A stretch of DNA of 64,000 nucleotides. Source: Cladocopium goreaui (Eukaryota; Sar; Dinophyceae; Suessiales; Symbiodiniaceae). Made by a program: the position numbers and the translations under genes. The notes beneath the pieces are model-generated. The model worked only from the letters and a program-made list of their open reading frames with translations. It was not told the DNA's origin and did not search any database. The DNA lies in contig CAMXCT020002778.1 of assembly GCA_947184155.2 (NCBI GenBank), positions 1 to 64,000 of the forward strand, read 5' to 3'. Shown piece by piece: positions 17,991 to 63,282 of this stretch (positions are counted from its first letter, which is position 1; every line of letters starts with the position of its first letter).

Positions 17991-18442
17991 ACCGTTCATA
18001 GTGAGCTTCACTGTTCAGTTTGCATGTCTATGCGACAATGATTTTTGCTTGTCAAACGCAGGGGTCGTGGTCTCAGGCTTCGACCAACACATTTTTTGCA
18101 TTGAATTGTGCGAGTGTGTAGCAGGTTAGTGCATGAAGTTGTACAGATTACCAAGTACCTCTTTCCTGGGATCAGACGTGGACGTAGAGACAAGATGCAT
18201 TGTGCACAGAGTGAACATCCATATGCTTATATGTACGCTGAATGTTCGTGAAACAAGTGACGATTTCTGTAGGGTCTGTCCGTGAGATTTCGAGAATTGC
18301 AGTGTTTGTTGACGATGCAGTGGATCTATGTGATGTATAGCACGAAAAACATATATGTGTTGTTTTCATTGAAATGCATGAGCAGTGGCAAAAATAATAC
18401 GGGAATCACTGCACCGTTCAATTTTGTCTGGGCCGCTCGGCA
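17991..18442 (+). repeat. Degenerate upstream cassette (partial copy)
   Basis: Pieces of two dispersed repeats seen elsewhere: one around the GTGAGCTTCACTGTTCAG motif (also near 37195, 37992, 38928, 39205 and 54585) and the 5'-flanking cassette described at 39712-40211, here internally deleted. A degraded hairpin core lies at 18266-18281. Confidence 0.6.
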
Positions 18443-18551
18443 ATGGCCGCGTGGAGACCGCCGGAGGATGAGGAAGTGGCATGGATGTTCGAAGTTGTGG
18501 GGTGCAAGCGATCTCATCTTGGAGACATGTCGGAGGATGAGTTCCGATACA
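18443..18551 (+). pseudogene. 5' fragment of the J-domain gene
   Basis: The first ~36 codons match the J-domain gene at 40212 almost exactly (MAAWRPPEDEEVAW, then GCKRSHLGDMSEDEFRY), after which the sequence switches abruptly to a GGTACC-type repeat. It lacks the HPD motif and is a dead copy. Confidence 0.8.
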
Positions 18552-18784
18552 TCTATTCAAATGAATCTCATGTGGTTTTAGTCGGCGATTCACGGTACCC
18601 ATTTGTTTTTTTGAAGTGTGTTGATTTGATGGTGTTCATTGCAGCTTTTTGAAGTGTGTTGATTTGATTTCAATGCAATCGTTGCATTGAATTGTGCGAG
18701 TGTGTAGCAGGTTTGTGTTTGTCTTTCGAAGGACTTGTCATTCTGCGGAGTCTTCTATGCTGCTGAGGTGATGTGAATGTGTGT

Positions 18785-19290
18785 GATGCAACGTTGACGC
18801 GTTCAGCCTTCAGTTTGCAGGTCTCTGCGACAGTGGTTCTTTGCCATGTCAAACTCATGAGTGGTGTTCTCAGTTTGGAAGTCACCGAACAAATTCTTTG
18901 CAGTGGATTGTGCAACGTTGCAGCGACAAGCATAGTTTACCTCTTTATCTCTTTCCTGGGCTCAGACGTGAACGTAGAGACAAGATACATTGTGCACGGA
19001 ATGAACATCCATATTTAGTCATGTACGCTGAATGTTCGAGAAACAAGTGACGATTGGCCAACAGGTATCTTTAACATTTCTTGGACTTCTCGAGGTTTCT
19101 GTAGGGGCTGTCTGTGAGATCTCGAGAATTGCATTGTGACAATGTCAGTGTTTGTTTACGATGCAGTGGATCTATGTGATGTATCGCACGAAAAAAAAAA
19201 TATATGTGATGTTTGCATTGAAATGCATGAGCAGTGGACAAAAAAAACTACGGGAATCATTGTACCGTTCAATTTTGTACCGTTCAATGT
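18785..19290 (+). repeat. ~480-bp upstream cassette (copy)
   Basis: Copy of the cassette that also precedes genes at 40212 and 56391. It contains a 5'-type hairpin at 19087-19128 (TTCTCGAG and CTCGAGAA arms around a TGTAGGGGCTGTCTGT core). It lies ~150 bp before the module gene starting at 19444. Confidence 0.75.
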
Positions 19291-19443
19291 TGTTTTGAAA
19301 TCAAGCATGTCATGGCATTGTTTTGAAAGCAAGAGAACAAATATGCATGTCTCGGAATTTCTGAATGCAAACTGTTTGGTTAAAGTCACGCACCCGTGAC
19401 GTTTGTGGACGTTTTGCGGTCGCTGTTTCATTTGCTGAAGGGA

Positions 19444-21225
19444 ATGTCTGTGCGAATGGAGCATGCGACCGCGTCATCCTCGTCGTCCGATGGCGTGGAA
19501 ATTCGGTTGCAGGAGCTGCGTAGCAGTGCTGTGACCAGGGGTCGTGAATGGCTCCAGGATGCCCTGGCAAACATTTCTGTAATGGAGCTTCGCAAAATGG
19601 CACATGCTCGGAATGTTGGCCGTGGACCGGACAACAAGTGGCTTGCGGTTGGAGAGCTGCGCGCTCGATTGCTGGATGTCTTGGCACCACGCATGCAGGT
19701 CCGGTGGGGCAGAATAGGATTGTGACGAAAGTTGCGTGTTTGTCACATGGTGCAATGTTGTAGGATGATTGTTGTTTTGTGGTGGCAGTGTGTCGGATGC
19801 TGCAGGTGGAAGAGGCATCGGCTGCCGAATTGGAAGAACTTCGCCTTGGAGCTGTTTCAGAGGGCAAGGAGTGGCTCAGTCGTGCTTTGTCGGAAATGTC
19901 GGCTCGTCAGCTTCGAGTTCTGGCTGCTGCGGGTGGTGTGGAGACACGATCCGGCAAGGCGTGGCTGCCTGTAGCAGAACTGCGCACCTCGTTGATGAAA
20001 GTCTTGGAACCTTCCACGGAGGTCGGGTTCAACCAAAAAATGTGTTGTGACATGAGTTGTTTTTGTGACCGAATTTGTCACATGGTGCGATGTTGTGGGA
20101 TGATTTTTGTTTTGTGGTGGCAGTGTGTCGGATGCCGCAGGTGGAAGAGGCATCGGCTGCCGAATTGGAAGAACTTCGCCTTGGAGCTGTTTCACAGGGC
20201 AAGGAGTGGCTCAGTCGTTCTTTGTCGGAAATGTCAGCTCGTCAGCTTCGAGTTCTGGCTGCTGCGGGTGGTGTGGAGACACGATCCGGCAAGGCGTGGC
20301 TGCCTGTAGCAGAGCTGCGCAACTCGTTGATGAAAGTCTTGGAACCTTCCACGGAGGTTGGGTTCAACCAAAAAATGTGTTGTGACATGAGTTGTTTTTG
20401 TGACCGAATTTGAATGTTTGTCACATGGTGCGATGTTGTAGGATGATGGTGGTTTTGTGGTGGCAGCGTGTCGGATGCCGCAGGTGGAAGAGGCATCGGC
20501 TGCCAAATTGGAAGAACTTCGCCTTGGCGCTGTTTCACAGGGCAAGGAGTGGCTCAGTCGTGCTTTGTACGGAATAGGAAGAGACGAGCTTCGAGTCCTG
20601 GCTACTGCGGCTGGTGTGGAGACACGATCGGGCAACGCTTGGCTGCCTGTAGCAGAGCTGCGCAACTCGTTGATGAAAGTCTTGGAACCCTCCACGGAGG
20701 TTGGGTTCAACCAAAAAATGTGTTGTGACATGAGTTGTTTTTGTGACCGAATTTGAATGTTTTTCAGACATGGCATCATGTTTGTGACATACCAAGGATC
20801 GACAAACAAATATCTTCAACATTTGTTGCATCTCTTGAGGTCTCTGTAGGGGCTGTCCGTGAGATCTCGAGAATTGCATAGTGATCATGCCAATGTTCGT
20901 TTGTGATGTAGTGGATCTATGTGTTATGTTTTCATTGATATGCATGAGCAGCGGGAAAAAGTTGTAGGATGATGGTTGTTTTGTGGTGGCGGTGTGTTCC
21001 ATGCTGTAGGTGGACGAAGCATCGGCTGCCAAATTGGAAGAACTTCACCTTGGAGCTGTTTCAGAGGGTGCGGAGTGGCTCCATCGTGCTTTGTACGAAA
21101 TAGGAAGAGACAAGCTTCGAGTCCTGGCTGCTGCGGGTGGTGTGGAGACACGATCCGACAAGGCTTGGTTGCCTGTAGCAGAGCTGCGCAGATCGTTGAT
21201 GAAAGTCTTGGCGACTTCCACGGAG
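19444..21225 (+). CDS. Modular protein, 5' exons: five related modules, four of them 216-bp exons
   Basis: Start ATG 19444 (MSVRMEHATAS). Exon 1 (19444-19698, 85 codons) ends at AG|GT. Then come four exons of exactly 216 bp each, all phase 0: 19806-20021, 20141-20356, 20484-20699 and 21010-21225. Each encodes one module with the pattern LEELRxGAV...EWLxRAL...LRVLAxAxGVETRS...WLPVAELRxSLMKVL; exon 1 is a more distant version. The helix-loop-helix pattern with a closing ELRxxL recalls SAP or Rho-N-like nucleic-acid-binding motifs, but the similarity is weak and no function can be assigned. Introns 2 and 3 are nearly identical, showing repeated tandem duplication of exon plus intron. The frame continues in phase 0 into the exon at 23850, so this may be the N-terminal part of a longer gene. 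A second copy lies at 56391. Confidence 0.7.
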
Positions 21226-21730
21226 GTTGGGTGCAACCAAAAAAAAACGGCATCATGGTACCGATGTTTTTTTGGCTATTTATGTGGGATTTATCATACA
21301 AAAATGATATAACATGTGTCGTGCACGGCATCATGGTACCGATCTTTTCTCGGCCATTTATGTGTGATTTTCCACACAAAAATGAAACCATGTGTGTCAT
21401 GCAAGACATCATGGTACTGAGCCTGTCTTGATGGTTTCTGTGGATTCTTTCCAGAAGAAAATGAGACAGTGTGTGCCATTTACTGCATTATGGTATTGGA
21501 CATTTTTTTTTTGTGTGCAAACGTATCCAGGCATATCAGTAGTGAAGTATTGTCACACGTGTGATTTACAGTCTCACGGTACTGATCTTTTTGGGCCATT
21601 TTTGTGGTAGTTTCCATACAAAAATGAAATAACATGTGTCATTCATAGCATCATGGTACTGAGCTTTTTTGGGCCATTTATGTGGGAGTTTCCATACAAA
21701 AAATGAATTAACATTTGTTGTATTTATCAG
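21226..21730 (+). repeat. Array of ~75-bp GGTACC units
   Basis: At least six units start with GGTACC/GGTACT/GGTATT at 21272, 21337, 21413, 21492, 21578 and 21656, each followed by a T tract, a GTGGGA-like block, an AAAATGAAATAA-like block and CATCAT. All are on the + strand. They occupy what is probably a large intron. Confidence 0.85.
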
Positions 21731-21734
21731 GGTT

Positions 21735-22075
21735 TCTGTGCGCAAGATGATGGAAGACGATGCAAGATGATGCAAGACAATGCAAGACGATGCAAGATAA
21801 TGTAAGAGAATGCAAGATGCTGCAAGATGGTGTAAGAGAATGCTGGGCAATGCAAGATGATGCAAGACGATGCAAGACAATGCAAGACGATGCAAGATAA
21901 TGTAAGACAATGCAAGATTCTGCAAGATGGTGTAAGAGAATGCGGGGCAATGCAAGATAATGCAAGACGATGCAAGACAATGCAAGATGATGCAGGTCAA
22001 TGCAAGACATGCAAGACAATGCAAGACAATGCAGATCATGCAAGACAATGCAAGACGATGCAAGATGATGTGTTT
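21735..22075. repeat. 10-bp-period satellite, block 1
   Basis: Tandem variants of GATGCAAGAC, each about one DNA helical turn. Long Leu/His/Ser/Cys-rich ORFs on the minus strand here are artefacts. Confidence 0.95.
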
Positions 22076-22299
22076 TTCCTAAATAAAACGAAATGGCTTA
22101 TTTCATACACTGCTTCATACCGGGCTTTTTCTGTGGTATTTTCTGTGATGAAATGAAAGAACATGTGTTATACATGGCATCATGGTACCGAACTTCTTTG
22201 AACATCATAATGCTTATATGCACACTGGATGTTTGTAAAATATCAGGGATCGGCAGACCAATATCTTCAAGATTTGTTGTATTTCTCGGAGTTTCTGTG
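22076..22299 (+). repeat. Spacer between satellite blocks
   Basis: Contains one GGTACC unit (~22185) and a piece of the upstream cassette (AATATCTTCAAGATTTG). No gene seen. Confidence 0.6.
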
Positions 22300-23325
22300 T
22301 GCAAGATGATGCAAGACAATGCGAGATGATGCAAGAGTTTGCAAGATGATGCAAGACAATGCAAGATGATGCGAGATTTTGTAAGATGATGCAAGACGAT
22401 GCAAGACAATGCAAGACGGTGCAAGAGGGTGCAAGATGATGCAAGATGATGCAAGACAATGCAAGACAATGCAAGACAATGCAAGACGATGCAAGATGGT
22501 GCAAGATGATGCGAGATGGTGCAAGTCAATGCAAGACGATGCAAGGTGATGCAAGGCGATGCAAGGGGATGCAATATGATGCAAGATGATGCAAGACAAT
22601 GCGAGACGATGCAAGAGTTTGCAAGATGATGCAAGACAATGCAAGATGATGCGAGATTTTGTAAGATGATGCAAGACGATGCAGGACAATGCAAGACGGT
22701 GCAAGAGGGTGCAAGATGATGCAAGATGATGCAAGACAATGCAAGGTGATGCAAGATGGTGCAACACAATGCAAGACGATGCAAGGCGATGCAAGATGAT
22801 GCAATATGATGCAAGAGGATGCAAGATGATGCAAGACAATGCAAGATGATGCGAGATTTTGTAAGATGATGCAAGATTTTGTAAGATGATGCAAGACAAT
22901 GCAAGACAATGCAAGACGGTGCAAGAGGGTGCAAGATGATGTAAGATGATGCGAGATAATGCAAGACAATGCAAGGTGATGCAAGACAATGCAAGATGAT
23001 GCGAGATTTTGTAAGATGATGCAAGAGAATGCAAGACAATGCAAGACTGTGCAAGAGGGTGCAAGATGATGCAAGATGATGCAAGACAATGCAAGACGGT
23101 GCAAGAGGGTGCAAGATGATGCAAGATGATGCAAGATGATGCAATATGATGCAAGACAAAGCAAGACCATGCAAGGCGATGCAAGGCGATGCGAGATGAT
23201 GCAAGATGGGGCAAGACAATGCAAGACCATGCAAGGCGATGCAAGGCGATGCGAGATGATGCAAGATGATGCAAGATGATGCAAGACAAAGCAATATGAT
23301 TGAAGGTTGTGCAAGACGATGCAAG
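22300..23325. repeat. 10-bp-period satellite, block 2
   Basis: About 1 kb of the same GATGCAAGAC-type repeat, with higher-order blocks (segments containing GTGCAAGAGGGTGCAAGATG recur every few hundred bases). Confidence 0.95.
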
Positions 23326-23849
23326 ATTATGTGTTATTTCCAAAATAAAACGAAGTGACGTATGTTATACGCACCATCATGGTACCGAGCTTTTTTGTGC
23401 CATTTGCGTGGAAGTTTCGATAATAAAATGAATTATCATGTGTCATACACAGCATCATGGTACCGAGCTGTCTTGTCCCATTTATGGGGAAATGTCCATA
23501 ATAAAATGAAATGACATATGTCATAGATGGCATCATGTTTGTGAAATACCAGGGATCGACAAACAAATATCCTCAACATTTGTTGCATCTCTTGAGGTTT
23601 CTGTAGGGGCTGTCCGTGAGATCTCGGGAATTGCATAGTGATCATGCCAATGTTCGTTTGTGATGTAGTGGATCTATGTGTTATGTTTTCATTGATATGC
23701 ATGAGCAGCGGGGGAAAAAAACTGGTTCCGTTGGGATCATTATATGGTACCGAGCTTTTGTGCTGTAGTTTTGTTGCCTGCAGGCAATTGTAGACTGTCG
23801 GCATTGCAAAAACGTCAAGTGCGGCTGTTTTGTTTGATTTTTTTAGCAG
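23326..23849 (+). repeat. GGTACC units and a hairpin before the next exon
   Basis: Two complete units (23378 and 23458), a further GGTACC at ~23756, and a hairpin copy at 23588-23630 (CTTGAGG / ATCTCGGG arms, slightly decayed). It ends in a pyrimidine-rich tract and AGCAG, which is the acceptor for the exon at 23850. Confidence 0.7.
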
Positions 23850-26084
23850 GAGCCGTGTCACGATGATGCTCTTGCGTCTGGTGCAAGTGTCTTGTGGGGC
23901 TGGCTGAAACGATGTTTGGAAAGTCCTTCGGCGCCTGATACTACATTGCTTCGAGATGCTGTTCCAGAAGGAAACGATCGCATGCGTATTTTGGCTGTTT
24001 TGGCCGACAAGACCATGGGTCAGGTGGAGGGATTGCATCTTTCGCTTGCTTCTTTGGATGCTCGTGTGGTGGATGCGACGTTGCCGCTTCTTGCTACTTT
24101 CGATGAAGTGCAGCAATCGTTGCCCAGCAAAGCTGTCATGGATTCTGTTGATTTATTGGATTTACCAGGTTACTTCGCCTCCATTGGCATGGAGCATTTG
24201 CTGCGGCATCAGGTTGTGGCATTGTTGTCCTGTGTTTTGCTGAGTGTATCGGAAGAAAGACGACTTCAATGGTGTCGTCTGGTGGGGTTCACCATCGACT
24301 CGGACATGTTGGAAGTGGCGAGCCGTTTGTGGGATGTCCACACACTTACAGCTGTTTGTGAATGGGACAGTTCTGGTGGTTATGAGGATCGTGACAATGT
24401 GGTGGAGGTGGGTGGTTGTCGAAACTATTGCATGGCTCGTGTTATTTTTTTTGTTCATGTCTTGCCGGTTCGCGGTGGTTCTGTCTTTGTGTTGCTTGCA
24501 GGTGGTCCTTGGCATCCTGTGGGGCACGAAGGCGCTGGTGGTGGATGATGAGGGCGAGGTGCGCCGGCGTCGAGGTAAGCTGGATGCTGCAGACGCGACG
24601 TACCTGCGATGCCTGATGCGGAGATATGGCTGGGAAAGATTTGAGCAGGACGTGGAGGTGTGCTATTGGTCCGAATGCTTTCCATCTGCTCGCTATGGGA
24701 CCAAGAAGTGTTTACAGTTTGCTTGGCTTTTGCTGACGCAGTTACTTCATCCTCGCGAGACGCCTGCATTGCAAGCTGTGCGCTCACGTCACGATCCAGT
24801 GACGGTCGGAGAACTCCGTGATTCCAGGACGAGTGAGTGTCGTTGTTGTATGTTTTGTGTAGTTTTCTTACCTTTGTCACCTTTGTGAATAACAACATCA
24901 TGGTACTGAGCTTTTTTTGGCAATTTATGTAGGTATTTGCATGATAAAATGAAATAATCTATGTCATGTAAAGCATAATGGTACCGAGCTTTTTTTTGCT
25001 TGATGAATGAGATAACGTACGTTATTTATGCATCATGCGCGTGATCATGGTAGCCAAATCTTTTTCGGACATCCGAAATTCTTATATGCGCGCTGGATGT
25101 TCGTGAAATATCAGGGATTGGCAAAGAGATATCTTCTCGAGGTTTCTGTAGGGGCTGTCCGTGAGGTCTCGAGGAATTGCATACTGATCATGACATCGTG
25201 TGTACAGGAGCGGAGTGTCTCCGGTTGTCGTTCAATTGGAACTGGATATACGACAATGGCAGGAAGTGCAGCAGTGCTTGCGGTTGCCGACTTCAGATGA
25301 AGACGGTGTGCTGTTCAAGCGGGTGTCGGAGTATTTGGAGAAGGAGAAGAAGGTGCGCTGTCGTTCCATGAAAGTTGCATTCCCTGGCGATGTGGACAAC
25401 ATCAAGGAGTTGAAGTTGGATTGTTTGGAGGCTTCGGATGATGCAGAGAATGGTATCAAATGGAGATCCGACACGGAACGCAACTTGATGCAGTCGATTC
25501 CTGGGTGGACTGAAGGAACTCTGTCCAAGGCCGCTTTTGTGCCATTGAGTGCCATCCTTTTCGGCGCTGGCACTTCTGTTGTGGAAGGTGTTCCGGAGGT
25601 GGATGTGGAAGGGGATGGTAATGCAGTTGTTCCTGACGGCACTGGCTCTTCATGTGTGGAAGTTGCTGAGGAGGCAGATGTGGAGATGGATGTTGCTGCG
25701 GGCATTGCTATGGAGGCTTTGCCAGAGAATTTGCGAGTTGCCAAGAAAGTTTTTGCTGTGTTGGAAAATGTGAATATGAAGTTTGAGATCAAGCTGCGTG
25801 AAGTTGCGCAGATGTTGGACTGCAGTCCAGCTATCACTGCTATTGGTGAAGCGCTGTCTCGCCTGGTGTTATGGTCTTACGATGATGATGATGTCCAGAA
25901 TCCGCTGGAGCGTTACCAGTGCAGACTGTGCAATTTTGGAACTGGCGGACAGAAAGAGTTTTTGGAACATTTAGCGGAGAAACACAGTGGAGGTGCCGAT
26001 GCCAGCCGTGTGCTCATCGAGTATCGTAAGAAGGTCATTGGACTGTTGACACACTTGGGCCCCACAGTTTCTTGTCTGCGCTGA
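23850..26084 (+). CDS. Exons of an unknown protein with a C2H2 zinc finger (probable continuation of the modular gene)
   Basis: Exon 23850-24407 (186 codons, phase 0, GAG|GTGGGT donor) joins 24502-~24831 (TTGCAG|GTGG acceptor). The third exon runs from ~25207 to a TGA at 26082. Joining exons 2 and 3 needs either a donor starting with GA or a small shift, because the GTGAGT at ~24834 leaves the wrong phase. The first part is helical and unassigned (MGQVEGLHLSLASLDARVVD). The last part is acidic (EVDVEGDG...) and carries one C2H2 finger, YQCRLCNFGT...FLEHLAEKH (C-x2-C-x12-H-x4-H), near residue 260 of that exon. It lies directly before the Helitron-type gene in the same direction and could be its N-terminal region, though the stop at 26082 argues for a separate gene. 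Confidence 0.55.
24885..25206 (+). repeat. Intron filled with GGTACC units and a hairpin
   Basis: Two units (24901 and 24980) are followed by part of the upstream cassette with a hairpin at 25134-25175 (TTCTCGAGG and GGTCTCGAGGAA arms around TGTAGGGGCTGTCCGT). The acceptor is GTGTACAG at 25206. This shows the hairpin can occur in a region removed by splicing, if the gene model is right. Confidence 0.6.
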
Positions 26085-26297
26085 CCTTTTGTGGGATCGG
26101 GGTACTGAGCTTTTTGTAGCTATCTGCGTGGAATTTGTATCATAAAGTGAGATAATAGTTTTAATTCACGGCGTCGGGGTACTGAGCTTTTTGTGTTGTA
26201 TTTCTGTTAACACGATCGGAGTAGGGTAGTGTTAAATGTTTGATGTGAGATATCATGGTACCGAGATTTGCTGATGATGTTTTCATGAAGTGATGCA
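26085..26297 (+). repeat. GGTACT/GGTACC units
   Basis: Units at about 26100, 26180 and 26256 in + orientation, ending at the CATCAG acceptor of the Helitron-type gene exon. Confidence 0.7.
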
Positions 26298-51677: not shown

Positions 51678-51721
51678 GGTCGAATTTGCTTTGGCAAGAT
51701 TTGTTTTGATTTTTTGAGATC

Positions 51722-53090: not shown

Positions 53091-53142
53091 CTCGCTCTTC
53101 TTCTATTCTTTCTTAAGGCGGGGGCGGTGCCGCCGGAGCGCC

Positions 53143-53690
53143 ACGAAACGCAACCCTTTCGCACGAAATGGACGTTGGACGTCCAAAACCTAGGTAAAAT
53201 TGCGATTTTGAAGCGTCCCCGGCACGAAATGGATGTTGGACGTCAAAAACTGAGGAAAAATTGCGACTTTGAAGCGTCCCGCGAAACCCTTTCGCACGAA
53301 ATGGACGTTGGACGTCAAAAACAGCGGAAAAATTGCGACTTCGAGGTGTCCCGCGAAATGGACGTTGGACGTCAAAAACTGAGGAAAAATTGCGACTTTG
53401 AAGGGTCGCGTCCCGCGCAACCCTTTCGCACGAAATGGACGTTGGACGTCAAAAACTGCGGAAAAATTGCGACTTTGAGGTGTCCCGCGCAACCCTTTCG
53501 CACGAAATGGACGTTGGACGTCAAAAACTGAGGAAAAAATGCGACTTTGAAGCGTCCCGCGCAACCCTTTCGCACGAAATGGACGTTGGACGTCAAAAAT
53601 TGAGGAAAAATTGCGACTTTGAAGCGTCCCGCGCAACCCTTTCGCACGAAATGGACGTTGGACGTCAAAAACTGAGGAAAAATTGCGATG
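53143..53690. repeat. ~72-bp satellite, locus 2
   Basis: Same unit as 17050-17528, with shortened units near 53215 and 53350. Confidence 0.95.
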
Positions 53691-54455: not shown

Positions 54456-54967
54456 ACTTTCACCGCACGACATGGAACTGTTAGAGATTGAGGGTGAAAA
54501 TGCTTGCTAGTGCATCCGTGCTAGGACGTGCGGAGCTCGGTTCGTTTGGTGTGGTAATTTGTGTGGGAATTGATATGTTCATAGTGAGCTTCACTGTTCA
54601 GTTTGCATGTCTATGCGACAATGATGTTTGCTTGTCAAACGCAGGAGTCGTGGTCTCAGGCTTCGAAGAACGAATTCTTTGCATTGAATTGTGCGAGTGT
54701 GTAGCAGGTTAGCGCATGAAGTTGTAGAAGTTACCAAGCTGTTGGGTTCGTTGTACCTTTGTGGATGTTTCCTTCGAGAACGGTGTGATGCATGTAATTT
54801 ACAGCATGATGGTGTTCGACAATGATGCCCATCCCAAGTGTCAAACTCACGAATTGTGTTCTCAGTTTGGAAGTCCAGGATGATGCAAGATGAAACAAGG
54901 CATTGCGAGATGATGCAAGATGGTGTTGCCGAGCTGTTGAGTTTTTTGTTACCGAGCTTTGTTAAAC
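54456..54967 (+). repeat. Dispersed repeats
   Basis: CTTCACTG-type repeat (54575-54710) and sequence like 39340-39710 with part of it deleted, including a scrap of the GATGCAAGA repeat. No gene. Confidence 0.6.
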
Positions 54968-55460
54968 TAGTTTTTTGTTGATGCGTTCAGCCTTCAGTTT
55001 GCAGGTCTCTGCGACAGTGGTTCTTTGCCATGTCAAACTCATGAGTGGTGTTCTCAGTTTGGAAGTCAGAGAACAAATGCCTTGCAGTGGATTGTGCAAC
55101 TCTGCAGCGACAAGCATAGTTTACCTCTTTACCTCTTTCCTGGGCTCAGACGTGAACGTAGAGACAAGATGCAGTGTGCACAGAGTGAACATCCATATTC
55201 TTATATGTACGCTGAATGTTCGTGAAACAAGTGACGATTGGCAAGCAGGTATCTTTAACATTTCTTGCACTTCTCGAGGTTTCTGTAGGGGCTGTCCGTG
55301 AGATCTCGAGAATTGCATTGTGACAATGTCAGTGTTTGTTTACGATGCAGTGGATCTATGTGATGTATAGCACGAAAAAAATATATGTGATGTTTTCATT
55401 GAAATGCATGAGCAGTGGACGAAAAAATATTACGGGAATCATTGTACCGTTTAATTTTGT
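54968..55460 (+). repeat. ~480-bp upstream cassette (copy)
   Basis: Includes the 5'-type hairpin at 55273-55314. It leads into a truncated start of the modular gene at 55613. Confidence 0.8.
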
Positions 55461-55612
55461 TTTGAAATCAAGCGTGTCATGGCATTCTTTTGAAATTAAG
55501 CGAACAGATATGTATGTCTCGGAATTTCTGAATGTAAAATGTTTGGTTGAAGTTACGCACCCGTGACGTTTGTGGACGTTTTGTGGTCGCTGTTTCATTT
55601 GCTGACGGGAAT

Positions 55613-55680
55613 GTCCGTGCGAATGGAGCATGCGACCGCGTTATCCGCGTCGTCCGATGCCGTGGAAATTCGGTTGCAGA
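55613..55680 (+). pseudogene. 5' fragment of the modular gene
   Basis: About 22 codons (MSVRMEHATALSASSDAVEI...) equal to the starts at 19444 and 56391, then a switch to GATGATGCAAGATGG-type sequence. Confidence 0.8.
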
Positions 55681-55751
55681 GGCATTGCGAGATGATGCAA
55701 GATGGTGTTGCCGAGCTGCTGAGTTTTTTGTTATCGAGCTTTGTTAAATTA

Positions 55752-56390
55752 GTTTTTTGTTGATGCGTTTAGCCTTCAGTTTGCAGGTCTCTGCGACAGT
55801 GGTTCTTTGCCATGTCAAACTCATGAGTGGTGTTTTCAGTTTGGAAGTCAGAGAACAAATGCTTTGCAGTGGATTGTGCAACTCTGCAGCGACAAGCATA
55901 GTTTACCTCTTTACCTCTTTCCTGGGCTCAGATGTGAACGTAGAGACAAGATGCATTGTGCACAGAGTGAACATCCATATTCTTATATGTACGCTGAATG
56001 TTCGTGAAATAAGTGACGATTGGCAAACAGGTATCTTTAACATTTCTTGCGCTTCTCGAGGTTTCTGTAGGGGCTGTCTGTGATATCTCGAGGATTGCAT
56101 TGTGACAATGTCAGTGTTTGTTTACGATGCAGTGGATCTATGTGATGTATAGCACGAAAAAAATATATGTGATGTTTTCATTGAAATGCATGAGCAGTGG
56201 ACGAAAAAATACTACGGGAATTATTGTACCGTTCAATTTTCTCTTGAAATCAAGCATGTCATGGCATTGTTTTGAAAGCAAGCGAACAAATATGCATGTC
56301 TCGGAATTTCTGAATGTAAAATGTTTGGTTGAAGTCACGCACCCGTGACGTTTGTGGACGTTTTGTGGTCGCTGTTATTTGCTGAAGGGA
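55752..56390 (+). repeat. Upstream cassette of modular gene copy 2
   Basis: Copy of the ~480-bp cassette, with a slightly decayed hairpin at 56053-56094 (CTCGAGG / ATCTCGAGG; core TGTAGGGGCTGTCTGT), followed by ~150 bp also found before 19444. Confidence 0.75.
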
Positions 56391-56968
56391 ATGTCCGTGC
56401 GAATGGAGCACGCGACCGCGTCATCCGCGTCGTCCGATGCCGTGGAAATTCGGTTGCAGGAGCTGCGTAGCAGTGCTGTGACCAGGGGTCGTGAATGGCT
56501 CCAGGATGCCCTGGCAAAAATTTGTGTAATGGATCTTCGCAAAATGGCAGATGCTCGGAATGTTGGCCGTGGACCGGACAACAAGTGGCTTGCGGTTGGA
56601 GAGCTGCGCGCTCGATTACTGGATGTCTTGGCACCACGCATGCAGGTCCGGTGGGGCAGAATAGGATTGTGACGAAAGTTGCATGTTTGTTACATGGTGC
56701 AATGTTGTAGGATGATTGTTGTTTTGTGGTGGCAGTGTGTCGGATGCTGTAGGTGGACAAGGCATCGGCTGCCAAATTGGAAGAATTTCGCCTTGGAGCT
56801 GTTTTACAGGGCAAGGAGTGGCTGAGTCGTGCTTTGGACGAAATGCGAAAAGAGGAGCTTCGAGTCCTGGCTACTGCGGGTGGTGTGCAGACACATTCCA
56901 ACCGGAATTGGCTGCCTGTAGCAGAGCTGCGCAGCTCGTTGATGAAAGTCTTGGAACCCTCCACGGAG
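56391..56968 (+). CDS. Modular protein, copy 2 (two modules, then truncated)
   Basis: ATG 56391. Exon 1 is 56391-56645 (255 bp) and exon 2 is 56753-56968 (216 bp), with the same boundaries as the gene at 19444. The next intron runs to ~57086, where the sequence switches, just before the expected acceptor, to the duplicated unknown gene (from ~57096). The C-terminal part is therefore missing. The modules have several residue changes relative to copy 1 but no stops. Confidence 0.65.
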
Positions 56969-57212
56969 GTTGGGTTCAACCAAAAAATGTGTTGTGACAT
57001 GATTTGTTTTTGTGAGCGAATTTGAATGTTTGTCACATGGTGCGATGTTGTAGGATGATGGTGGTTTTGTGGTGGCAGTGTGTTTAATTATCTGGAAACA
57101 TGTGTGGTACAGTGACGGCATGCACATTCATGGCTGCACCGCGTGAACATAACGTTCTTGCGCACACATCCGTTGATTTCGGGTCTGTGTTGGTTTGTGC
57201 ATGCTTTTGGAT

Positions 57213-58305
57213 ATGTTTCGGCTCAGCATGCAAGCCGCTGCGGTCATTCATTCGTGCGGGACTGTCAGTGAATGGGGCGACAACCGTGTAAAGTCGAAGA
57301 GTTTTGGCTGTCCAAATAAAGCTTGCGTGAATTTTTTGTCGCTTCGAAATGGCCCGCACAAAGCAGACGCGGTGGATGAAGCCGCAACGGTTGCGATGGC
57401 CGAGTTGAGCGAATGTTTGCAGCAAGAGGACGAAAATGGGCACAGGATTGTCGGCTTGAGATATAGAGCTGATGTGTCTGCTTTGAAAGACGCGGTCACG
57501 TTGCTGCGAGCATCCAACTTGTCGCTTGGGAGCATCATGTTCTTGCTGCGAGCATCTAACTTGTCGCTTGGGAGCATCATGTTCTTGGCAGGTTTTCTTC
57601 ACATCCTGTACTGGTCGTGGCCAACGATGACTGCGGTCGGTCACCATGTTGCTGGAATGCACTGCTTCGAATCAAATTCGATGCTGGTGCAAATTGGATC
57701 GCGCCAAGGCCAAATGTTACTTGATGGATGTTGGAAAGAGGTTGCATGACCTCTATGACAAAGTGTGTTGCCATCAAGGACGCTCTTTGATGTTGCGGAG
57801 CCACAAGAGAAAGCGAACTGGTGCTTGCCCAAACCCGACCATGAACCCTATGATGCGTAGAGGAAGTCGGCAGCAATGGCAGCATCTGGTGGATGATGTC
57901 AAAACTGGTGCATGGCAGAACATGTGTCAAAGCACTGCAGTATTCATTGAAGACAGCATCGGAAGCAATGGAATCAAAGTGTGCTACAAGACCCTTTTCG
58001 ACATCATGGCGCGGTTTGATTCCACTTTGTACTCTGCCAGCTGGACGGTATCTACCTCGCATTACAACACCGTCCATTTCATTCGAACTTTTATGTTTGC
58101 CATGGACTTGCATTCCGATCAATCGTCTGCTGACTGGGATTTGTTGAGCACCATGGGCACCGGAGTGAGAGATTCCAGCATTCCTGTCAAGACGCATGCC
58201 GTTGCGACGTATTGCGCTCGGCGTATCAGCCTCGAGCTGGGTGAGCCTTATGGCATCGAGGATCTCTGTTGTTTTCTTTGTATGTTGAAGAAACGTGATG
58301 GATGA
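57213..58305 (+). CDS. Unknown gene, copy 2
   Basis: Same structure as 50585-51677, including the 42-bp internal duplication and the frame change near 57590-57646. Changes seen in part 2 include TGACPNP for TGAFPNP and STAVFIEDS for SAAVLIEES. That some substitutions change residues while the frame stays open fits either weak selection or very recent origin. Confidence 0.6.
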
Positions 58306-58349
58306 GGTCGAATTTGCTTTGGCAAGATTTGTTTTGATTTTTTGAGATC

Positions 58350-58379
58350 TTCCTACTGTTGGAACTGTCCGTGTAGGAA
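58350..58379 (+). promoter_or_regulatory. Core hairpin after unknown gene copy 2
   Basis: TTCCTAC...GTAGGAA around TGTTGGAACTGTCCGT. Confidence 0.9.
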
Positions 58380-58668
58380 CGACGTTTCCATCCTTGCTGA
58401 CAGAGCTGTGCCTGTGAAGAGAAAAGCTGCACGTGGCTCTGTGTTTATTTGGCTTGCAGCTAGATGTAAGAACTTAAACTAGCTGTTTGTGGATGCTCAT
58501 TGTGAATTGTAGTTGTGTGCTCGCACTTCCTTGCCAAGATGTTGTCCTTTCACGGTGTTTGCGTTGATTGCTTCACGGTGTAGGCTCAAATCTGTTGACC
58601 AATTTGGGCATCATGTGCGAGCAAGATGTGTCAACAAAAACGAAAACAGTTGCATGTAGAATGTCAAA

Positions 58669-58713
58669 CAAGCCACGGTTTTCTGTTGGGACTGTCCGCG
58701 AGACCGCGGCTTG
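58669..58713 (+). promoter_or_regulatory. Core hairpin with 14-bp stem, upstream of the RPA1-like gene
   Basis: Copy of 52041-52085; 136 bases before the ATG at 58849. Confidence 0.85.
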
Positions 58714-58848
58714 TGCAAGAGCGATTGATTCCTGTAACATAGCGTAAAATCGATGTCAAACACGCACTGTTATAATTTGTTTCTCACTTGCCTTCTTTGC
58801 TGCTGCATGCACATATTCGCGGGCCTCTTGTCACCGCGGTTTGAAAAC

Positions 58849-60896
58849 ATGTCTTTGCAAGAAGTGACTTTGGACCGCATTACGAAGAGCAACACCCACA
58901 TGGTCATGGTGGTTTTGCGTCCGGTGTACCATGAAATGAAGCAGTTGCCCGGAAAAGATAAGGGGACCTGGTGGAAGTCGATCGTTCGTCTCGTGGATCA
59001 AAAGGGACAGGGACTCTATGCAGAGATCCGGGGATTTTCTGAGGGTAGTGTTCGAAAGCGGGCCCAGGAGTTTTACCAGCCCAAATACATCCAATTGACG
59101 CAAGCTGTTGTAGTGCAGAATTCGCCTTTTTTGTCCGGTTTCTCTGCTGATGTCACGAACAAGGGGAAGGTGTCGCCAGTGGCAGAGGCTCATGCCAGTG
59201 CGATGAAGTTGCGCGGCCTTTTCCCCACCGCCAGGTCCAACTTTGGTGTTTTAGCGGAACGTTGTGAAGGGAAGGAGAGGGCGGATGTCATTGGAAAGGT
59301 GACCCGGAAGGAGACGCCAGCGATGAGAGTCCAAAAGATGACATTGTGGCTGAAGGATGAGTCTCACAGCGAACTGGCTGTGCATCTCTGGGGCGGGCGT
59401 TTTGTTTCCAAGGGCAACGAAATCGATGTTGGCTCGGTGGTACAGGTGGACAATGCTTTGTTGTCGAAGATCCGTGCCGGCATCGAGGCGAGCTGTGAGC
59501 ACTGGATGGATAGCAGCAGGAATAGGTTCAGTGCTTTGCATGTCAATCCCACGGGCAGTAGTGTCGAGAAATTGAAGGCTTTGTCTGTCACGCGGGGTGA
59601 GGCGCTGTCCGTGCCTTGGCTCCAGACTGCTTCACGTCGAATGGTGTCGGATGGCATGGAGAAGTTCATTTCGTGCTGCGCCACTGTATCTTCGTGCTCT
59701 CTGGCGCTTACGGATGCGATGTTAGAGGCCGCTGTGCTGAGCTGAACTAGCTTGTAATGAGCACGTTGAGTCCGTGTGACTGGGAGTCTTTCTTTGTTGA
59801 TTGCTTGTCGTGCTTTCCCTTTCTTTATCATTATCTGTTGTCAGGCACAGCAAGATATCATCGAAGTGCAGTTGAACTGCGTTTGGGTCACAGGCATCTT
59901 GGGGGATCCCATCTACACGGCCTGCAAGAATTGCGCGACGAAGATTGATATGACCACCGGGCATTGCAAACGTCATGAGAGTCACAACTGCCAAACGATT
60001 CGGGATGAAGAGGTATCCATCTTGGCCACAGTGACTTTGGCAGATCACACCGGTGAAGTTGACAGAGTCTTGGTGGATGGGGACAGGTTGCAGTTGCTGG
60101 CAAATGCCAAGAGCAAGCAGGATCTGGTCGCCCTCTTGACGAAGCGTGGCCCGCAGACCATGTGTTTTTGTCATCCAGTGGACGTCCGCTTGGCTACCAA
60201 TGGCCGCAAGCCAGGCGCCGGCAGATCCAAGTTGCCTGCTGCCGCGCAAGGAGTCCTCCAGTCGCAGGAGACGGATCAGGAGAATTTGCCCGAGTGTCAG
60301 TTTCAGGTGCTCGCCGCACAGCACGCTCTGTGCCAGGGGTATTCGGAGGCAAAGCGTCCGATGATCAAGAAGATAGTTCGAGTGGAGAATCAGAGGGCGA
60401 CGGGAATGAGATCGCTTGCCCTCATGAGGACCTGTTGTTCTCTGGCTTCGGTACCAAGCTGCGAGCCGCGGCAATTTTTCCCAGCTATGTCACTGTGTTG
60501 GTGCGGGCAGAAGATGAGGAAGCCAAGATCGTTGAGACGGGCACGGGGGACGACAAGGTCATCATGCTGCAGTATGAGAAGGTGGTGGCAGTGGAGGCGC
60601 AGTTTCCCAAGCATTTCCGGGTGGAGGCCTTTTGCCAATTGCAGCAGGCGATTCGCTTCAACATGTGTGACGGCAATGTGCATCTTGTCATCGGCAAGGT
60701 GACGGCGGAAGACGATGGCTCCGACATGGTTCTGGTTGCGGAAAGAGTCTTCAAATTGCAATCGGAGGAACAGGTGAAAGCGGTCATGGCCGAGCGTGCC
60801 GCCATCGCAGCTGTGCAGATGATTTCTTCGAAAAAAAAACACGCCGTCGACTTGGTTGAGGAAACGCCCTTGAAAGTGAAAAGTGCCAAGTGGTAG
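58849..60896 (+). CDS. RPA1-like single-stranded-DNA-binding protein (two exons, one frame change)
   Basis: Exon 1 58849-59733 (295 codons, GCCGCT|GTGCTG) joins exon 2 from 59845 (TTGTCAG|GCACAG) in phase 0. Exon 1 has an OB-fold pattern like RPA large subunit: DVIGKVTRKETPAMRVQKMT, LWLKDESHSELAVHLWGG, then VVQVDNALLSKI. Exon 2 starts like the RPA1 C-terminal DNA-binding domain with its zinc ribbon: YTACKNCATKIDMTTGHCKRH. RPA coats ssDNA during replication and repair; RPA-like proteins also accompany some Helitrons. Near 60300-60345 the frame shifts, continuing as FGGKASDDQEDSSSGESEGD and a final OB-like part (VIGKVTAEDDGSDMVLVAERVF). The last 16 residues come from the shared 3' cassette, right after a nine-A run. 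Confidence 0.68.
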
Positions 60897-60995
60897 TTTT
60901 CTTTTTTGAGTTGCAAAATCATTGCTGACGGTGATACTACAGGGACTGTCCGTACATCACGCAGCGTGATTCTTTGCACCACGGCATTTTTTTCA
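60846..60995 (+). repeat. 3'-terminal cassette, copy 2 (partial)
   Basis: Supplies the last codons and stop of the RPA1-like gene, then hairpin and spacer, ending at TTTTTTTCATGTCATTTG, where copy 3 begins. Confidence 0.85.
60931..60960 (+). promoter_or_regulatory. Core hairpin after the RPA1-like gene (one weakened pair)
   Basis: GTGAT...ATCAC arms around the core TACAGGGACTGTCCGT; the inner pairs GC/GC of the other copies are changed to AC/AC and mismatched. Confidence 0.75.
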
Positions 60996-61245
60996 TGTCA
61001 TTTGAGGAAACGCCCTTGAAAGTGAAGAGTGCCAAGTGGTAGTTTTCTTTTTTGAGTTGCAAAATCATTGCTGACGGTGATGCTACAGGGACTGTCCGTG
61101 CATCACGCAGCGTGATTCTTTGCACCACGGCATTTTTTTCATTCCAACCAGCGTGGTATTTCTGGATAGGAACTGTCCGTGCTGTGGAGGGTCGCAGAAG
61201 GTGTGTTGCGTCCTGAAAAATGCGTCGATGCGCCTCTCTTTCAAA
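60996..61245 (+). repeat. 3'-terminal cassette, copy 3
   Basis: Starts within the coding part (EETPLKVKSAKW and stop) without an upstream gene, so it is a free-standing gene end. Contains the hairpin 61077-61106 and a second core at ~61168-61180. Confidence 0.85.
61077..61106 (+). promoter_or_regulatory. Core hairpin in free-standing 3' cassette
   Basis: GTGATGC...GCATCAC around TACAGGGACTGTCCGT. Confidence 0.9.
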
Positions 61246-61566
61246 TAAAGTCATGAACAGCATCATGGCATTCCACTGCAGCATGGCACCACTTTTGTAG
61301 AACTATTTATAAATCAATGATATAACCTGTGTTTTTTTACAGTATCATGGTACCGAGCTTTATTGGCTATTTGAAAAGGAATTTACAGCACAAAATGTGA
61401 AGACAAATGTGATCTACGACATCATGGTACCGAGCTTTTTTTGCTATTCACGCATGGGTTTGCCATTGATTTTTCCATGGATGTTGCATTTCCGGCTTAC
61501 ATGTCAGCACTTTTTTGTTGCTTTTTGTCATTGCCCTGTGCCTCGTTCCCTGTCTTTCCGTGCAAG
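61246..61566 (+). repeat. Spacer with GGTACC units
   Basis: Units at 61350 and 61427, then a short stretch before the next ORF that may be leader or intron. Confidence 0.65.
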
Positions 61567-62004
61567 ATGGAGCCGGCAGAGGGCAAGGCCGCTGAGGCCG
61601 AGGAAATGCCACCCAAAGCAGGTGGCTGCCAGCCTCGGCATGGGCATGAAAGAATTGGTCGGAAAGATTACGGGCCAGCAGCTCTAGTGCTCAGGTCCAT
61701 CAAGCGGCGCAAGGTGCTTATGAACCTTTCGCTCAAGTACCGCTGCCTGGGTGAGAATGTGCTGGCGGAAACTTTGCCTGATCCCACTGCGTGTGCATCC
61801 AAGAGAAAATGGGAGACAGCAATACAGAAGGCACGTGAGACTCTTCGACTCATGGCCCCAGATGTCGATCCTGACGCAGATGTCGACGTGAGCCTTGCCG
61901 GCACTGATGCAGTGCCATGTATTTCAGCAGGGTGTGAGCTGGAGCTTGCTGAATCTGATGGCGCGCCAGATTTTGATGGCATGCCTGATTTTCAATGGAT
62001 TTGA
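61567..62004 (+). CDS. Small acidic protein of unknown function
   Basis: ATG 61567 (MEPAEGKAAEAEEMPPKAGG) is chosen because the upstream in-frame part is hydrophobic and spacer-like. 145 residues; a basic middle (LVLRSIKRRKVLMNLSLKYR) and an acidic end (DVDPDADVDVSLAGTD...DGMPDFQWI). No family recognised. A hairpin follows the stop by ~60 bases. Confidence 0.5.
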   Translation: MEPAEGKAAEAEEMPPKAGGCQPRHGHERIGRKDYGPAALVLRSIKRRKVLMNLSLKYRCLGENVLAETLPDPTACASKRKWETAIQKARETLRLMAPDVDPDADVDVSLAGTDAVPCISAGCELELAESDGAPDFDGMPDFQWI

Positions 62005-62063
62005 ATCTGGAGCAACTGCCCGTGTACTTACAAGCTTTGCACTTCTCGCATAATTAAGTCCTG

Positions 62064-62105
62064 TCGTTCTCGATGCTGCAAGGACTGTCTGTGCGTCGAG
62101 CGACG
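62064..62105 (+). promoter_or_regulatory. Core hairpin after the small acidic ORF, with paired changes
   Basis: GTCG(TT)CTCGATGC...GCGTCGAGCGAC around TGCAAGGACTGTCTGT. Relative to the usual core, G-to-A and C-to-T changes occur together at the two positions predicted to pair with each other. Confidence 0.85.
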
Positions 62106-62425
62106 TGATTCTCATACAAATTCGCCTGCTTTGCGGCGGTTTGCGTTCTGCACAACGAACTGCAATGCCTGCCTGCACGGTGCTTCGAAAAATGTAAGAG
62201 TGCGCTGACGCTGTCTGACACGGGCAAGTTTCTTTGACGGGCGTGTTGCAGTTACATCTGTGAAGTGTTTGCAGTGTCACACTTGGAAATGAGTAATGCA
62301 GTTGGTGATCATGGAAAAAATGCGGTGATGCATCTCTCTGAAATGCGTGTTCTGATCTTGCAGTCTGTGTCTGTAAACTATTGTTACATATGTGATCCAC
62401 GGCATCATAGCATGTAGGAATTTTC
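62106..62425. other. Intergenic, nothing recognised
   Basis: About 320 bases without coding sense or a clear repeat, apart from a weak CATCAT-type remnant near 62402. Confidence 0.5.
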
Positions 62426-63223
62426 ATGGTGAAATTACTTGGTGTGGACTGCAGTTTTAATTGCTTTGACGTCGGCGGGATTATAGCTGCTGACATGGAA
62501 CCCGGCGCCTTGCGTCTTCGTCTGGATGACATCTATCTCCATCGAAGAGAACGGCCTGGTTTGATACTGTCAGCTGTCCATAAACACGTGTCGCCGAACT
62601 TGGCGGAGACACAGCCCATGTCGGTAGAGATTTGTTTTCGTTTGAGCATCTGGCCTCTCCAGCAGCTGAGTGCCCTTCCTGAGTTTCATTTTCTATTCGA
62701 CATGGACCCACGGGATGCCAGTGTCGATCTCTTATACCAAGAGCATTTACTGCAGTGGATGACTGTGGGGGATTTGCTGGGCGACTTGGTTCGTCGCATA
62801 GAAACACATCATGGAGGACGGTGTGGCAAAAGAAACATTTGCATCACAGCGGAAGGTCATCGCCAATTCGCGGCTCGTGAGAGTTTGACTATCCTTCGTG
62901 AGCTTGCGGATGAGAATTCTGTGGTCTCTCTTGTCGCTCGCCCTTCCAGTGTTGGTAAACAAATGCTGGCTGAATTCTGGCTTCCCAAGCTTGACGCAAA
63001 GTTGGCAGCTCCAGTGTTGGCCCGACTGGACTTGCATTGTTTCCAGGTGATTCTGGCTTGGACCTCACTTTGCGGGTGGTACAACCTATGCAGAGTGAAT
63101 AGACAGTGGAGCCGCTGGCTTCGTGCAAGCCCGACCTTTCAATCTGTGGTGTCGGATGCGCGTTGGGCCAAGGATCCCGAGTTGCTGTCCATCCAACGGG
63201 AAGTGCGAGCCAATGACGAATGA
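62426..63223 (+). CDS. Unknown protein, possibly F-box-like at its C-terminus
   Basis: 265 residues from ATG 62426 (MVKLLGVDCSFNCFDVGG); a second in-frame ATG at 62495 (MEPGALRLRLDDIYLHRR) could also be the start. The last 60 residues (DLHCFQVILAWTSLCGWYNLCRVNRQWSRWLRASPTFQSV) have the Leu/Val-x-x-W spacing of an F-box, which would link to ubiquitin ligases, but the match is loose. The middle is unassigned. The stop is followed by a perfect 9-bp hairpin. Confidence 0.6.
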   Translation: MVKLLGVDCSFNCFDVGGIIAADMEPGALRLRLDDIYLHRRERPGLILSAVHKHVSPNLAETQPMSVEICFRLSIWPLQQLSALPEFHFLFDMDPRDASVDLLYQEHLLQWMTVGDLLGDLVRRIETHHGGRCGKRNICITAEGHRQFAARESLTILRELADENSVVSLVARPSSVGKQMLAEFWLPKLDAKLAAPVLARLDLHCFQVILAWTSLCGWYNLCRVNRQWSRWLRASPTFQSVVSDARWAKDPELLSIQREVRANDE

Positions 63224-63248
63224 TCTGTTAAACACGGAATTTTGACGG

Positions 63249-63282
63249 GCTCGATGCTACAGGGACTGTCCGTGCATCGAGC
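63249..63282 (+). promoter_or_regulatory. Core hairpin after the F-box-like ORF
   Basis: GCTCGATGC...GCATCGAGC, a perfect 9-bp stem around TACAGGGACTGTCCGT, 25 bases after the stop. The best-formed example. Confidence 0.95.

Follow-up and report, generated by a model that had tools for sequence, protein, structure and literature searches.

A sense-strand RNA hairpin family carried by large Helitron2-like transposons of the dinoflagellate Cladocopium goreaui

We analysed a 64,000-nt stretch of the Cladocopium goreaui genome (assembly GCA_947184155.2, contig CAMXCT020002778.1, positions 1 to 64,000 of the forward strand; hereafter the window) and found that its recurrent hairpins form a sense-strand family that belongs to large Helitron2-like transposons and has been kept in two lineages of these elements. 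Folding of the family as RNA is well supported, and the hairpin is very probably an RNA element under selection. We lean towards a selected element of transposon transcripts whose trans-acting factor co-evolves with the transposon, probably in 3'-end processing or in the partition of transcripts. A first-pass annotation of the window had described some 30 copies of a 16-nt core between matching arms; our results add that the hairpins have a single Helitron2-like carrier, that they lie just past stop codons and that many of the copies are duplicates.

Results

A one-strand hairpin family in the window

Scanning the window with the core consensus, at up to 3 mismatches, gave 36 matches on the + strand and one on the - strand, at 60941, which overlaps the + copy at 60938. 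Only 0.31 matches in all are expected by chance and none of 100 shuffled sequences reached 37, which rules out a chance origin of the copies. A covariance model built from 18 distinct window hairpins (R1) recovered 37 hairpins, all of them on the + strand (Table 1). The one that lies beyond the 36 consensus copies, at 41095-41128, is new with respect to the first-pass annotation and had been missed by the consensus search because its inner stem is GAG/TTC. The recurrence reported in the first-pass annotation, always on the + strand, was thus reproduced, and the arm pairs quoted there are present, including both wobble cases and the exchange of an inner G-C pair for A-T at 62077. Arms pair directly beside the core at nearly all sites; they are poor at cores 49957 and 61165, and the hairpins at 30136 and 60938 score weakly.

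Several hairpins are duplicates of one another. By core start, the pairs are 35015/35103, 36664/37461, 42575/44912, 43196/45533, 51729/58357, 52056/58684 and 60938/61084; there is also a triple (19436/55603/56383), and one repeat with CTCGAG arms is present in 13 copies. By our own count, about 14 hairpins of the window are independent. The family had no match on the - strand of the window or of L039, which holds the 3' end of the element. At E up to 1, the initial 18.2 kb of the window gave no hairpin, and neither did the host actin loci (L079 and L080, 9.5 kb). A run of four T within 15 nt past the model end was found at 2 of the 37 window hairpins, which form one duplicate pair, and no run was longer; the T run directly past the stem that marks a bacterial-type intrinsic terminator is not a feature of the window hairpins.

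Fold and covariation

The hairpin consists of a variable stem, a 4-nt/2-nt internal loop, a 3-bp inner stem and an NCUG tetraloop, followed by an invariant G in the internal loop. Among the 18 distinct window hairpins, 91.7% of cells are paired and 11 of 12 pairs have changed on both sides; the covariation score is 0.816, against 0.281 with shuffled letters and at most 0.288 with slid partners. An alignment of 30 hairpins from the lineages sampled (A3) gave 91.7% of 360 cells paired and a score of 0.893 (0.294 shuffled, at most 0.227 slid). In 23 hairpins hand-picked for unrelated 5' arms, no two of which agree at more than 6 of 9 bases, the two arms of each hairpin pair with one another at 154 of 161 positions in total; the best of 20,000 arm permutations reached 109.

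Base pairs were tallied over 43 distinct hairpins, kept from 49 that were joined. The 301 arm cells hold 38 G-U and 3 A-C; the 129 inner-stem cells, all of them paired, hold 23 G-U and no A-C. With 61 G-U against 3 A-C cells in arms and inner stem together, it is therefore the mRNA-sense strand that folds. The pair 7-12 is G-U in 17 of the 30 A3 hairpins. At the apex, positions 10-12 and 15 are invariant (43/43) and position 9 is alike in 41 of 43; the second tetraloop base is C in 41 and A in 2. Compensatory changes were also seen in the core itself (GGR/YCC, GAR/YTC and AGA/TCT).

Two explanations for matching arms of different sequence had been proposed in the first-pass annotation. Selection for a folded RNA is borne out by covariation, by the tolerance of G-U and not of A-C, and by conservation across saturated divergence (see below). 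Insertion of a mobile core into palindromes finds no such support, as the core bears compensatory changes of its own. The statement that no described family fits agrees with Rfam 15, which gave no match at the gathering score and, with E relaxed to 5, still none on the hairpins. A search for tRNAs found none.

The host element

Judged from its asymmetric inverted repeats, CTAG end, Rep/Hel gene and RPA-like gene, the carrier of the hairpins is a multicopy Helitron2-like mobile element. Its 5' end probably lies inside an N gap (16587-17049). Termini were taken from three short copies (C779, C513 and C25), whose 5' start is TTTTTCCCGAGAGCG. The 5' inverted repeat, CCCGAGAGCG, has a 3' copy, CGCTCTCGGG, set in from the end by 15 nt ending in CTAG. 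This asymmetric terminal repeat is present at both ends of the three copies, and its 3' end also in the contig of the window. Terminal hairpins were identified by eye (CGAAG-GGTT-CTTCG at the 5' end and GAAAAA-CATC-TTTTTC at the 3' end). The 3' flank opens with TT in 4 of 4 cases, and all three 5' ends seen begin within a run of T.

Pfam was run on 30 open reading frame (ORF) segments, 28 of them from elements and four in two versions. In Rep/Hel, Helitron_like_N scored above the cut-off, DUF6570 was matched, and PIF1/AAA remained below the cut-off. No endonuclease domain, which in Helentrons of the narrow sense is fused to Rep-Hel, was found among the ORFs scanned, which do not cover every exon, and an NCBIfam scan gave nothing useful. 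Nine homologous proteins were obtained with the Rep/Hel query, six from Durusdinium trenchii and one from Symbiodinium necroappetens; PF14214 and PF20209 occur together in one protein in six of the nine.

In the 1.166 Gb of genome searched, TRYAGGRACTGTCCGT was found at 164 places against 45 for the reversed control; among the matches listed, 97 of 100 have a listed Rep/Hel or phosphatase match no more than 60 kb away. TGTAGGGNCTGTCCGT was found at 346 places against 37 for the control, and of 100 matches listed, 73 have a match to Rep/Hel, DUF6570 or phosphatase nearby. The first-pass annotation had named confinement of the core to this scaffold as an outcome that would refute it; the core does occur elsewhere in the genome. 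On viral contigs the core had no match, and Rep/Hel and phosphatase had no relatives there.

The three short derivatives (L041-L046) have no Rep/Hel match and keep an open dual-specificity phosphatase gene. Its ratio of nonsynonymous to synonymous divergence (dN/dS) against the window copy is 0.31-0.42, and 0.25-0.48 over 13 same-lineage copies. Inside the 5' end of the element we observed 72-nt and 16-nt (TGTAAAAGCGTCTGTG) tandem arrays (17050-17985 and 53161-54456), the 16-nt array recurring near the 3' end (L039:2881-3408). A 10-nt array (TGCAAGATGA) of about 100 copies occupies 22300-23331 and 21742-22065 in the 5' part. A second repeat family (D7), about 78-84 nt long and containing CATCATGGTACCGAGCTTTTTT, lies in introns and intergenic parts of the element, at 24913-24996 and 13 more places in the window, for example 21268, 23392, 30603, 39079 and 61359.

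Hairpins lie just past stop codons

In the element of this contig we assigned 12 gene ends, all hand-picked and one of them (64636) beyond the window edge; at each of the 12 a core starts 19-126 nt past the stop codon. Random placement in non-coding DNA, with a cutoff of 130 nt, gave a mean of 2.3 of 12 and at most 8 in 20,000 runs. With duplicates removed, 9 of 9 gene ends have a core within 130 nt, against a random mean of 1.7. Among the ORFs set aside are 19764-20309, 20973-21431 and 43111-43515 (a truncated duplicate), exons of Rep/Hel and overlapping frames, and the coding hairpin 30136 was omitted from the list of window hairpins.

Further window hairpins lie in introns, in 5' regions and in one coding linker. 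The family is thus not confined to 3' untranslated regions (UTRs), given the intronic hairpins 25147 and 27519 and a coding-linker hairpin found in both lineages. The two intronic hairpins and the exonic 30136 were placed with the help of homologous proteins; the intron of 27519 is of the GC-AG type and joins ...APG to HLMSS. The same intron is present in two relatives (L074 and L075), where no hairpin was found at that junction; a different intron of L074 carries one. Conservation in place of this intronic hairpin between lineages was therefore ruled out. A mobile intron (introner) was also rejected, since hairpins occur past stop codons and in an exon as well and no hairpin was found in the 27519 intron of two relatives.

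The ankyrin gene (49779-50059) and the RPA-like gene (60856-61142) share their last codons (DLVEETPLKV.SAKW), their 3' region and their hairpin, which looks as if a terminal exon had been copied between genes together with its hairpin.

The family in a second element lineage

Besides the group of the window, the genome holds a second group of Rep/Hel genes (67-70% identity) and a more distant third (about 30%). In the second group, L047-L049 carry two hairpins downstream of Rep/Hel, with other arms and the core AACC(A/G)GAACTGTCTGA; L051 (18.2 bits) and L050 (9.8 bits, not significant) have the core AGCCGGAAATGTCCGA. For the phosphatase gene, which lies close to the element's 3' end, the genome gave 151 matches. 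In the flanks of its relatives at about 42-59% identity, R1 matched on the coding strand in 14 of 16 cases (10.6-21.6 bits), and cores are readable in the diverged relatives.

Over 23.4 kb of one relative (C194:264400-287750), the gene order matches that of the window: Rep/Hel, J/Zn, kinase-like, RPA-like and phosphatase, at identities of 68%, 29-38%, 31-39%, 57-65% and 56%, respectively. Window ORFs 48874, 51003, 61375 and 62411 had no match in this stretch. A search model from A3 (R2) matched 19 hairpins at E 0.0011 or better and one weak one, 20 of 20 in the sense direction. Fifteen of the 19 cores read AACC(A/G)GAACTGTCYGA and the other four are one base off; they are alike near the Rep/Hel, J/Zn, kinase-like, RPA-like and phosphatase genes. 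Arms differ among the Rep/Hel, J/Zn, RPA-like and phosphatase genes; near-identical arms past Rep/Hel, the kinase-like gene and a 203-aa ORF show that copying occurs too.

Of the seven hand-picked gene ends of C194, five have a core within 130 nt (random mean 1.6, fraction 0.007). At these five, and at Rep/Hel, a second hairpin follows 73-106 nt on. The coding-linker hairpin also has a counterpart (C194:267348), at about the same Rep/Hel linker. Between the lineages the phosphatase gene has a synonymous divergence (dS) of about 2.0 and a dN/dS of 0.19. The RPA-like orthologs are the clear case of orthologous hairpins, with arms GTGATGC/GCATCAC in the window and GTGAAGC/GCTTCAC in C194.

Constraint among copies

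Hairpins diverge less than their flanks among copies of one element. For hairpin 63258, 8 of 442 cells differ, against 128 of 2932 in the flanks; for the hairpin past the phosphatase gene the counts are 15 of 476 and 187 of 3225. The same trend was seen in the four remaining sets of the six reported, which are those with at least 3 distinct rows out of 12 hairpins tried (49863 and 61084 are homologous and share rows).

Other features of the window

A near-identical duplication with 6.6-kb spacing (50.06-52.28 against 56.98-58.9 kb) surrounds an N gap (52283-52382), and a second 5'-end-like segment sits between its copies; an assembly fault or a nested copy could account for it. Ahead of the element, on the - strand (2610-13499), we read a copia-like retrotransposon frame, for which Pfam gave no match. 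The same stretch holds a gene whose product has a Tpt1/KptA RNA 2'-phosphotransferase domain (PF01885).

Table 1. Hairpins and principal element genes of the window
Feature	Position	Strand	R1 score or remark
Helitron2-like element, window part	17050..64000	+	extends 3' to contig base 67876 (L039:3876)
Hairpin, CTCGAG repeat type, one decayed arm	18259..18292	+	30.9 bits
Hairpin, CTCGAG repeat type, element 5' region	19091..19124	+	39.6 bits
Hairpin, arms TTTGC/GCGAA	19427..19460	+	37 bits
Hairpin, CTCGAG repeat type	20836..20869	+	41.4 bits
Hairpin, CTCGAG repeat type	23593..23626	+	41.7 bits
Rep/Hel gene, 15 placed exon pieces (earlier exons outside set), DUF6570, Helitron_like_N, PIF1-like helicase	23895..34889	+	
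Hairpin in Rep/Hel intron (core 25147; exon matches end 24831, start 25197)	25138..25171	+	38.4 bits
Hairpin in GC-AG intron between DUF6570 and Helitron_like_N exons (core 27519)	27510..27543	+	37.1 bits
Weaker hairpin in Rep/Hel coding exon, variable linker (core 30136)	30127..30160	+	23.3 bits
Hairpin, core start 126 nt past Rep/Hel stop	35006..35039	+	38.8 bits
Tandem copy (88-nt unit) of 35006..35039	35094..35127	+	34.5 bits
Hairpin, CTCGAG repeat type	35985..36018	+	42.3 bits
Hairpin, arms GTGC/GCAT	36655..36688	+	34.4 bits
Duplicate of 36655..36688	37452..37485	+	34.4 bits
Hairpin, CTCGAG repeat type	38535..38568	+	42.7 bits
Hairpin, CTCGAG repeat type, ahead of gene 40167	40011..40044	+	42.7 bits
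Hairpin, core 47 nt past stop 41057; inner stem GAG/TTC	41095..41128	+	R1 match
Hairpin, core 20 nt past stop 42555	42566..42599	+	39.6 bits
Hairpin, CTCGAG type, upstream of kinase-like gene copy	43187..43220	+	43.7 bits
Duplicate of 42566 hairpin; core 20 nt past stop 44892	44903..44936	+	39.6 bits
Duplicate of 43187 hairpin	45524..45557	+	43.7 bits
Hairpin, core 47 nt past stop 48166	48204..48237	+	37.2 bits
Hairpin, CTCGAG type, just upstream of in-frame ATG of ankyrin gene	48930..48963	+	42.9 bits
Hairpin, core 42 nt past ankyrin-gene stop 49821	49854..49887	+	40 bits
Poor-armed core, 94 nt beyond hairpin 49854..49887	49954..49975	+	19.7 bits
Hairpin, core 52 nt past stop 51677	51720..51753	+	37.3 bits
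Hairpin farther downstream of gene with stop 51677	52047..52080	+	33.2 bits
Hairpin, CTCGAG type, in second 5'-end-like segment	55275..55308	+	42.7 bits
Hairpin, TTTGC type	55594..55627	+	34.5 bits
Hairpin, CTCGAG type	56057..56090	+	33.1 bits
Hairpin, TTTGC type	56374..56407	+	35.2 bits
Duplicate of 51720 hairpin; core 52 nt past stop 58305	58348..58381	+	37.3 bits
Duplicate of 52047 hairpin, upstream of RPA-like gene	58675..58708	+	33.2 bits
RPA-like gene (weak REPA_OB_2 match, below cut-off)	58738..60896	+	
Hairpin, core 42 nt past RPA-like stop 60896; two innermost pairs lost	60929..60962	+	25 bits
Intact tandem copy (146-nt unit) of 60929..60962	61075..61108	+	40.1 bits
Core without good arms	61167..61180	+	14.2 bits
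Hairpin, core 73 nt past stop 62004; inner G-C to A-U	62068..62101	+	40.7 bits
Hairpin, core 35 nt past stop 63223; diverged less than flanks	63249..63282	+	44.2 bits
Dual-specificity-phosphatase (DSPc) gene, start	63851..64000	+	Ends at contig base 64636; then hairpin L039:646-679

Discussion

The family combines a conserved apex with a stem free to vary, and it occurs on a single strand, near gene ends and in some introns; this anatomy matches that of a hairpin read by a protein. The folding molecule would be the element's own mRNA or pre-mRNA. A trans factor evolving along with each lineage of the element would recognise its apical core, and the arms would need only to form a stem; such a reader is suggested because the core is alike across the genes of one lineage and different between lineages. 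The likeliest function would be to mark the 3' ends of element transcripts, through cleavage, through 3'-end formation or through partition of a long one-strand transcript. Granted a selected RNA element, we put a role in 3'-end processing at slightly below an even chance; otherwise the hairpin would bind a regulatory or export protein. In its most specific form, which we offer more tentatively, one or two hairpins would close each gene of a giant Helitron2, a co-evolving factor linked to the element would recognise their apex, and the element would in this way end, release or label its own mRNAs apart from those of the host.

A number of observations weigh against this interpretation. A signal of 3' ends alone would not be expected in introns (25147, 27519 and C194:265520) or inside a coding exon, where hairpins are also found. 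The gene ends were chosen by eye once the hairpins were known; in C194, gene end 276545 is hairpin-free within 1.8 kb and the first hairpin past Rep/Hel comes at 354 nt. Pfam gave no RNase III, poly(A) polymerase or RNA-binding domain in any of the 30 ORF segments, which leave out some exons. Five 3' flanks of Helitrons at about 30% identity lack hairpins, a single match at E = 1 being taken as chance, and 27 of the 100 listed TGTAGGGNCTGTCCGT places are not near any listed element gene. Most of the 14 R1 matches in phosphatase flanks score only 10-18 bits and are weak alone. The likeness of the C194 cores may partly reflect copying; 9 of the 19 C194 hairpins differ by more than 4 bases from every model row, and the other 10 resemble rows from sister copies. 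Apex conservation among the 43 hairpins is partly built in because the hairpins were found by core or model. Some changes among copies break a pair, and one of five measures is weak, since 44 of 500 shuffles reached the A3 count of pairs changed on both sides.

The strongest alternative is a binding tag that is not cut: one RNA-binding protein, of the host or of the element, would sit on all element transcripts in the nucleus and govern their export, stability, splicing or translation as a regulon. We regard this as possible but rather unlikely. It would cover 3'-region, intronic and coding-linker hairpins alike, and the paired hairpins speak for it. A conserved apex on a free stem, which is typical of protein-bound hairpins, counts in its favour too. 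It leaves unexplained why the first core lies so near the stop codon at every assigned gene end, and the ORFs scanned yielded no binding protein. For a function at 3' ends the main difficulty comes from the hairpins in introns and in the exon, and for a pure binding tag from the closeness to stop codons.

An action in single-stranded DNA (ssDNA) is improbable. Rep acts at the stem-loop origins of small circular viruses; here it would bind or nick apices on the displaced strand, or the sites would prime second-strand synthesis. The host is a rolling-circle transposon, the hairpins are all on one strand, and a lineage-specific core would co-evolve with the element's Rep. However, the real ends of the element carry other hairpins without this core, the frequent G-U pairs suit RNA better, and the association with stop codons is not predicted. 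Deletion breakpoints outside arrays gave a small excess near hairpins (8 of 46 sides within 50 nt against 4.1 expected, p = 0.05; the coding hairpin 30136 was left out and one of four L039 hairpins was placed 3 nt off). This excess is marginal and comes from sides that are not independent of one another; it did not convince us that the hairpins are sites of recombination or capture either.

It is very improbable that the family has no function, with hairpin-templated correction of imperfect palindromes keeping the arms alike by mutation, or with a mobile core dropped into palindromes. Palindrome correction can yield matching arms without selection, and some of the hairpins lie in duplicated DNA. 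Against this stand the conserved, non-palindromic apex (partly a product of how the set was found), the fully paired inner stem, the lower divergence of hairpins than of flanks, and positions past orthologous genes that are kept at a dS of about 2. Repeated duplication of one hairpin, with covariation only apparent from shared ancestry, has the duplicates in the window (at least 7 pairs, a triple and a 13-copy repeat) and the copied C194 hairpins on its side, but is refuted for the set as a whole by the 23 unrelated-arm hairpins, whose pairing none of 20,000 permutations equalled.

The histone mRNA 3' stem-loop and the iron-responsive element are hairpin motifs common to the mRNAs of a regulon. 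Unlike these, which have largely conserved stems or other loops, the present family conserves only its apex and is carried by a transposon. In mimivirus, palindromes end mRNAs under a 'hairpin rule' and are cut by a viral RNase III, and they are described as lacking sequence conservation (PMC4402537). The two systems share hairpins close past coding ends in one mobile genetic system, with stems that vary by gene. They differ in that the apex is conserved here (four positions in 43/43), hairpins also lie in introns and an exon, and the ORFs scanned, which omit some exons, gave no match to RNase III or poly(A) polymerase. Substrates of the yeast RNase III Rnt1 have an A/UGNN tetraloop in stem-loops of introns and mRNAs (PMC13183374). 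They resemble our hairpins in setting a conserved tetraloop on variable stems in both places, and differ in that the loop here is NCUG, above a 3-bp stem and an asymmetric internal loop. With a conserved apex in the one comparison and a loop other than A/UGNN in the other, we did not assign the family to either class and use both as working analogies. Helitron2/Helentron elements have asymmetric inverted repeats, a hairpin near each end and a Rep-Hel protein, and RPA-like genes are known in several plant Helitrons; the element here is about 50 kb long with an extra gene set common to two lineages, and the description consulted has no mention of internal hairpins past genes (PMC5148889).

In the open-access literature we found no report on Helentrons in dinoflagellates, on Helitron stem-loops in Symbiodinium, or on conserved, covarying UTR stem-loops of Helitron-type transposons; among the titles listed on Helitrons in dinoflagellates, none concerned such hairpins. 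If our interpretation is true, hairpin-directed mRNA maturation would exist outside giant viruses, and an RNA structural family absent from Rfam would mark the transcripts of one mobile-element group across saturated divergence, its stems changing freely while its apex evolves with the lineage. To our knowledge, it would be the first gene-by-gene RNA code of such a kind in a eukaryotic transposon. No AAUAAA-like signal is known for dinoflagellate mRNA 3'-end formation, and for that reason any hairpin that defines a 3' end would be informative. The hairpins would help to find and classify these elements, including the short derivatives that keep the phosphatase gene. They would also offer a ready bait for the factor that reads them, and a way to study the expression of many genes from a single strand in large dinoflagellate transposons.

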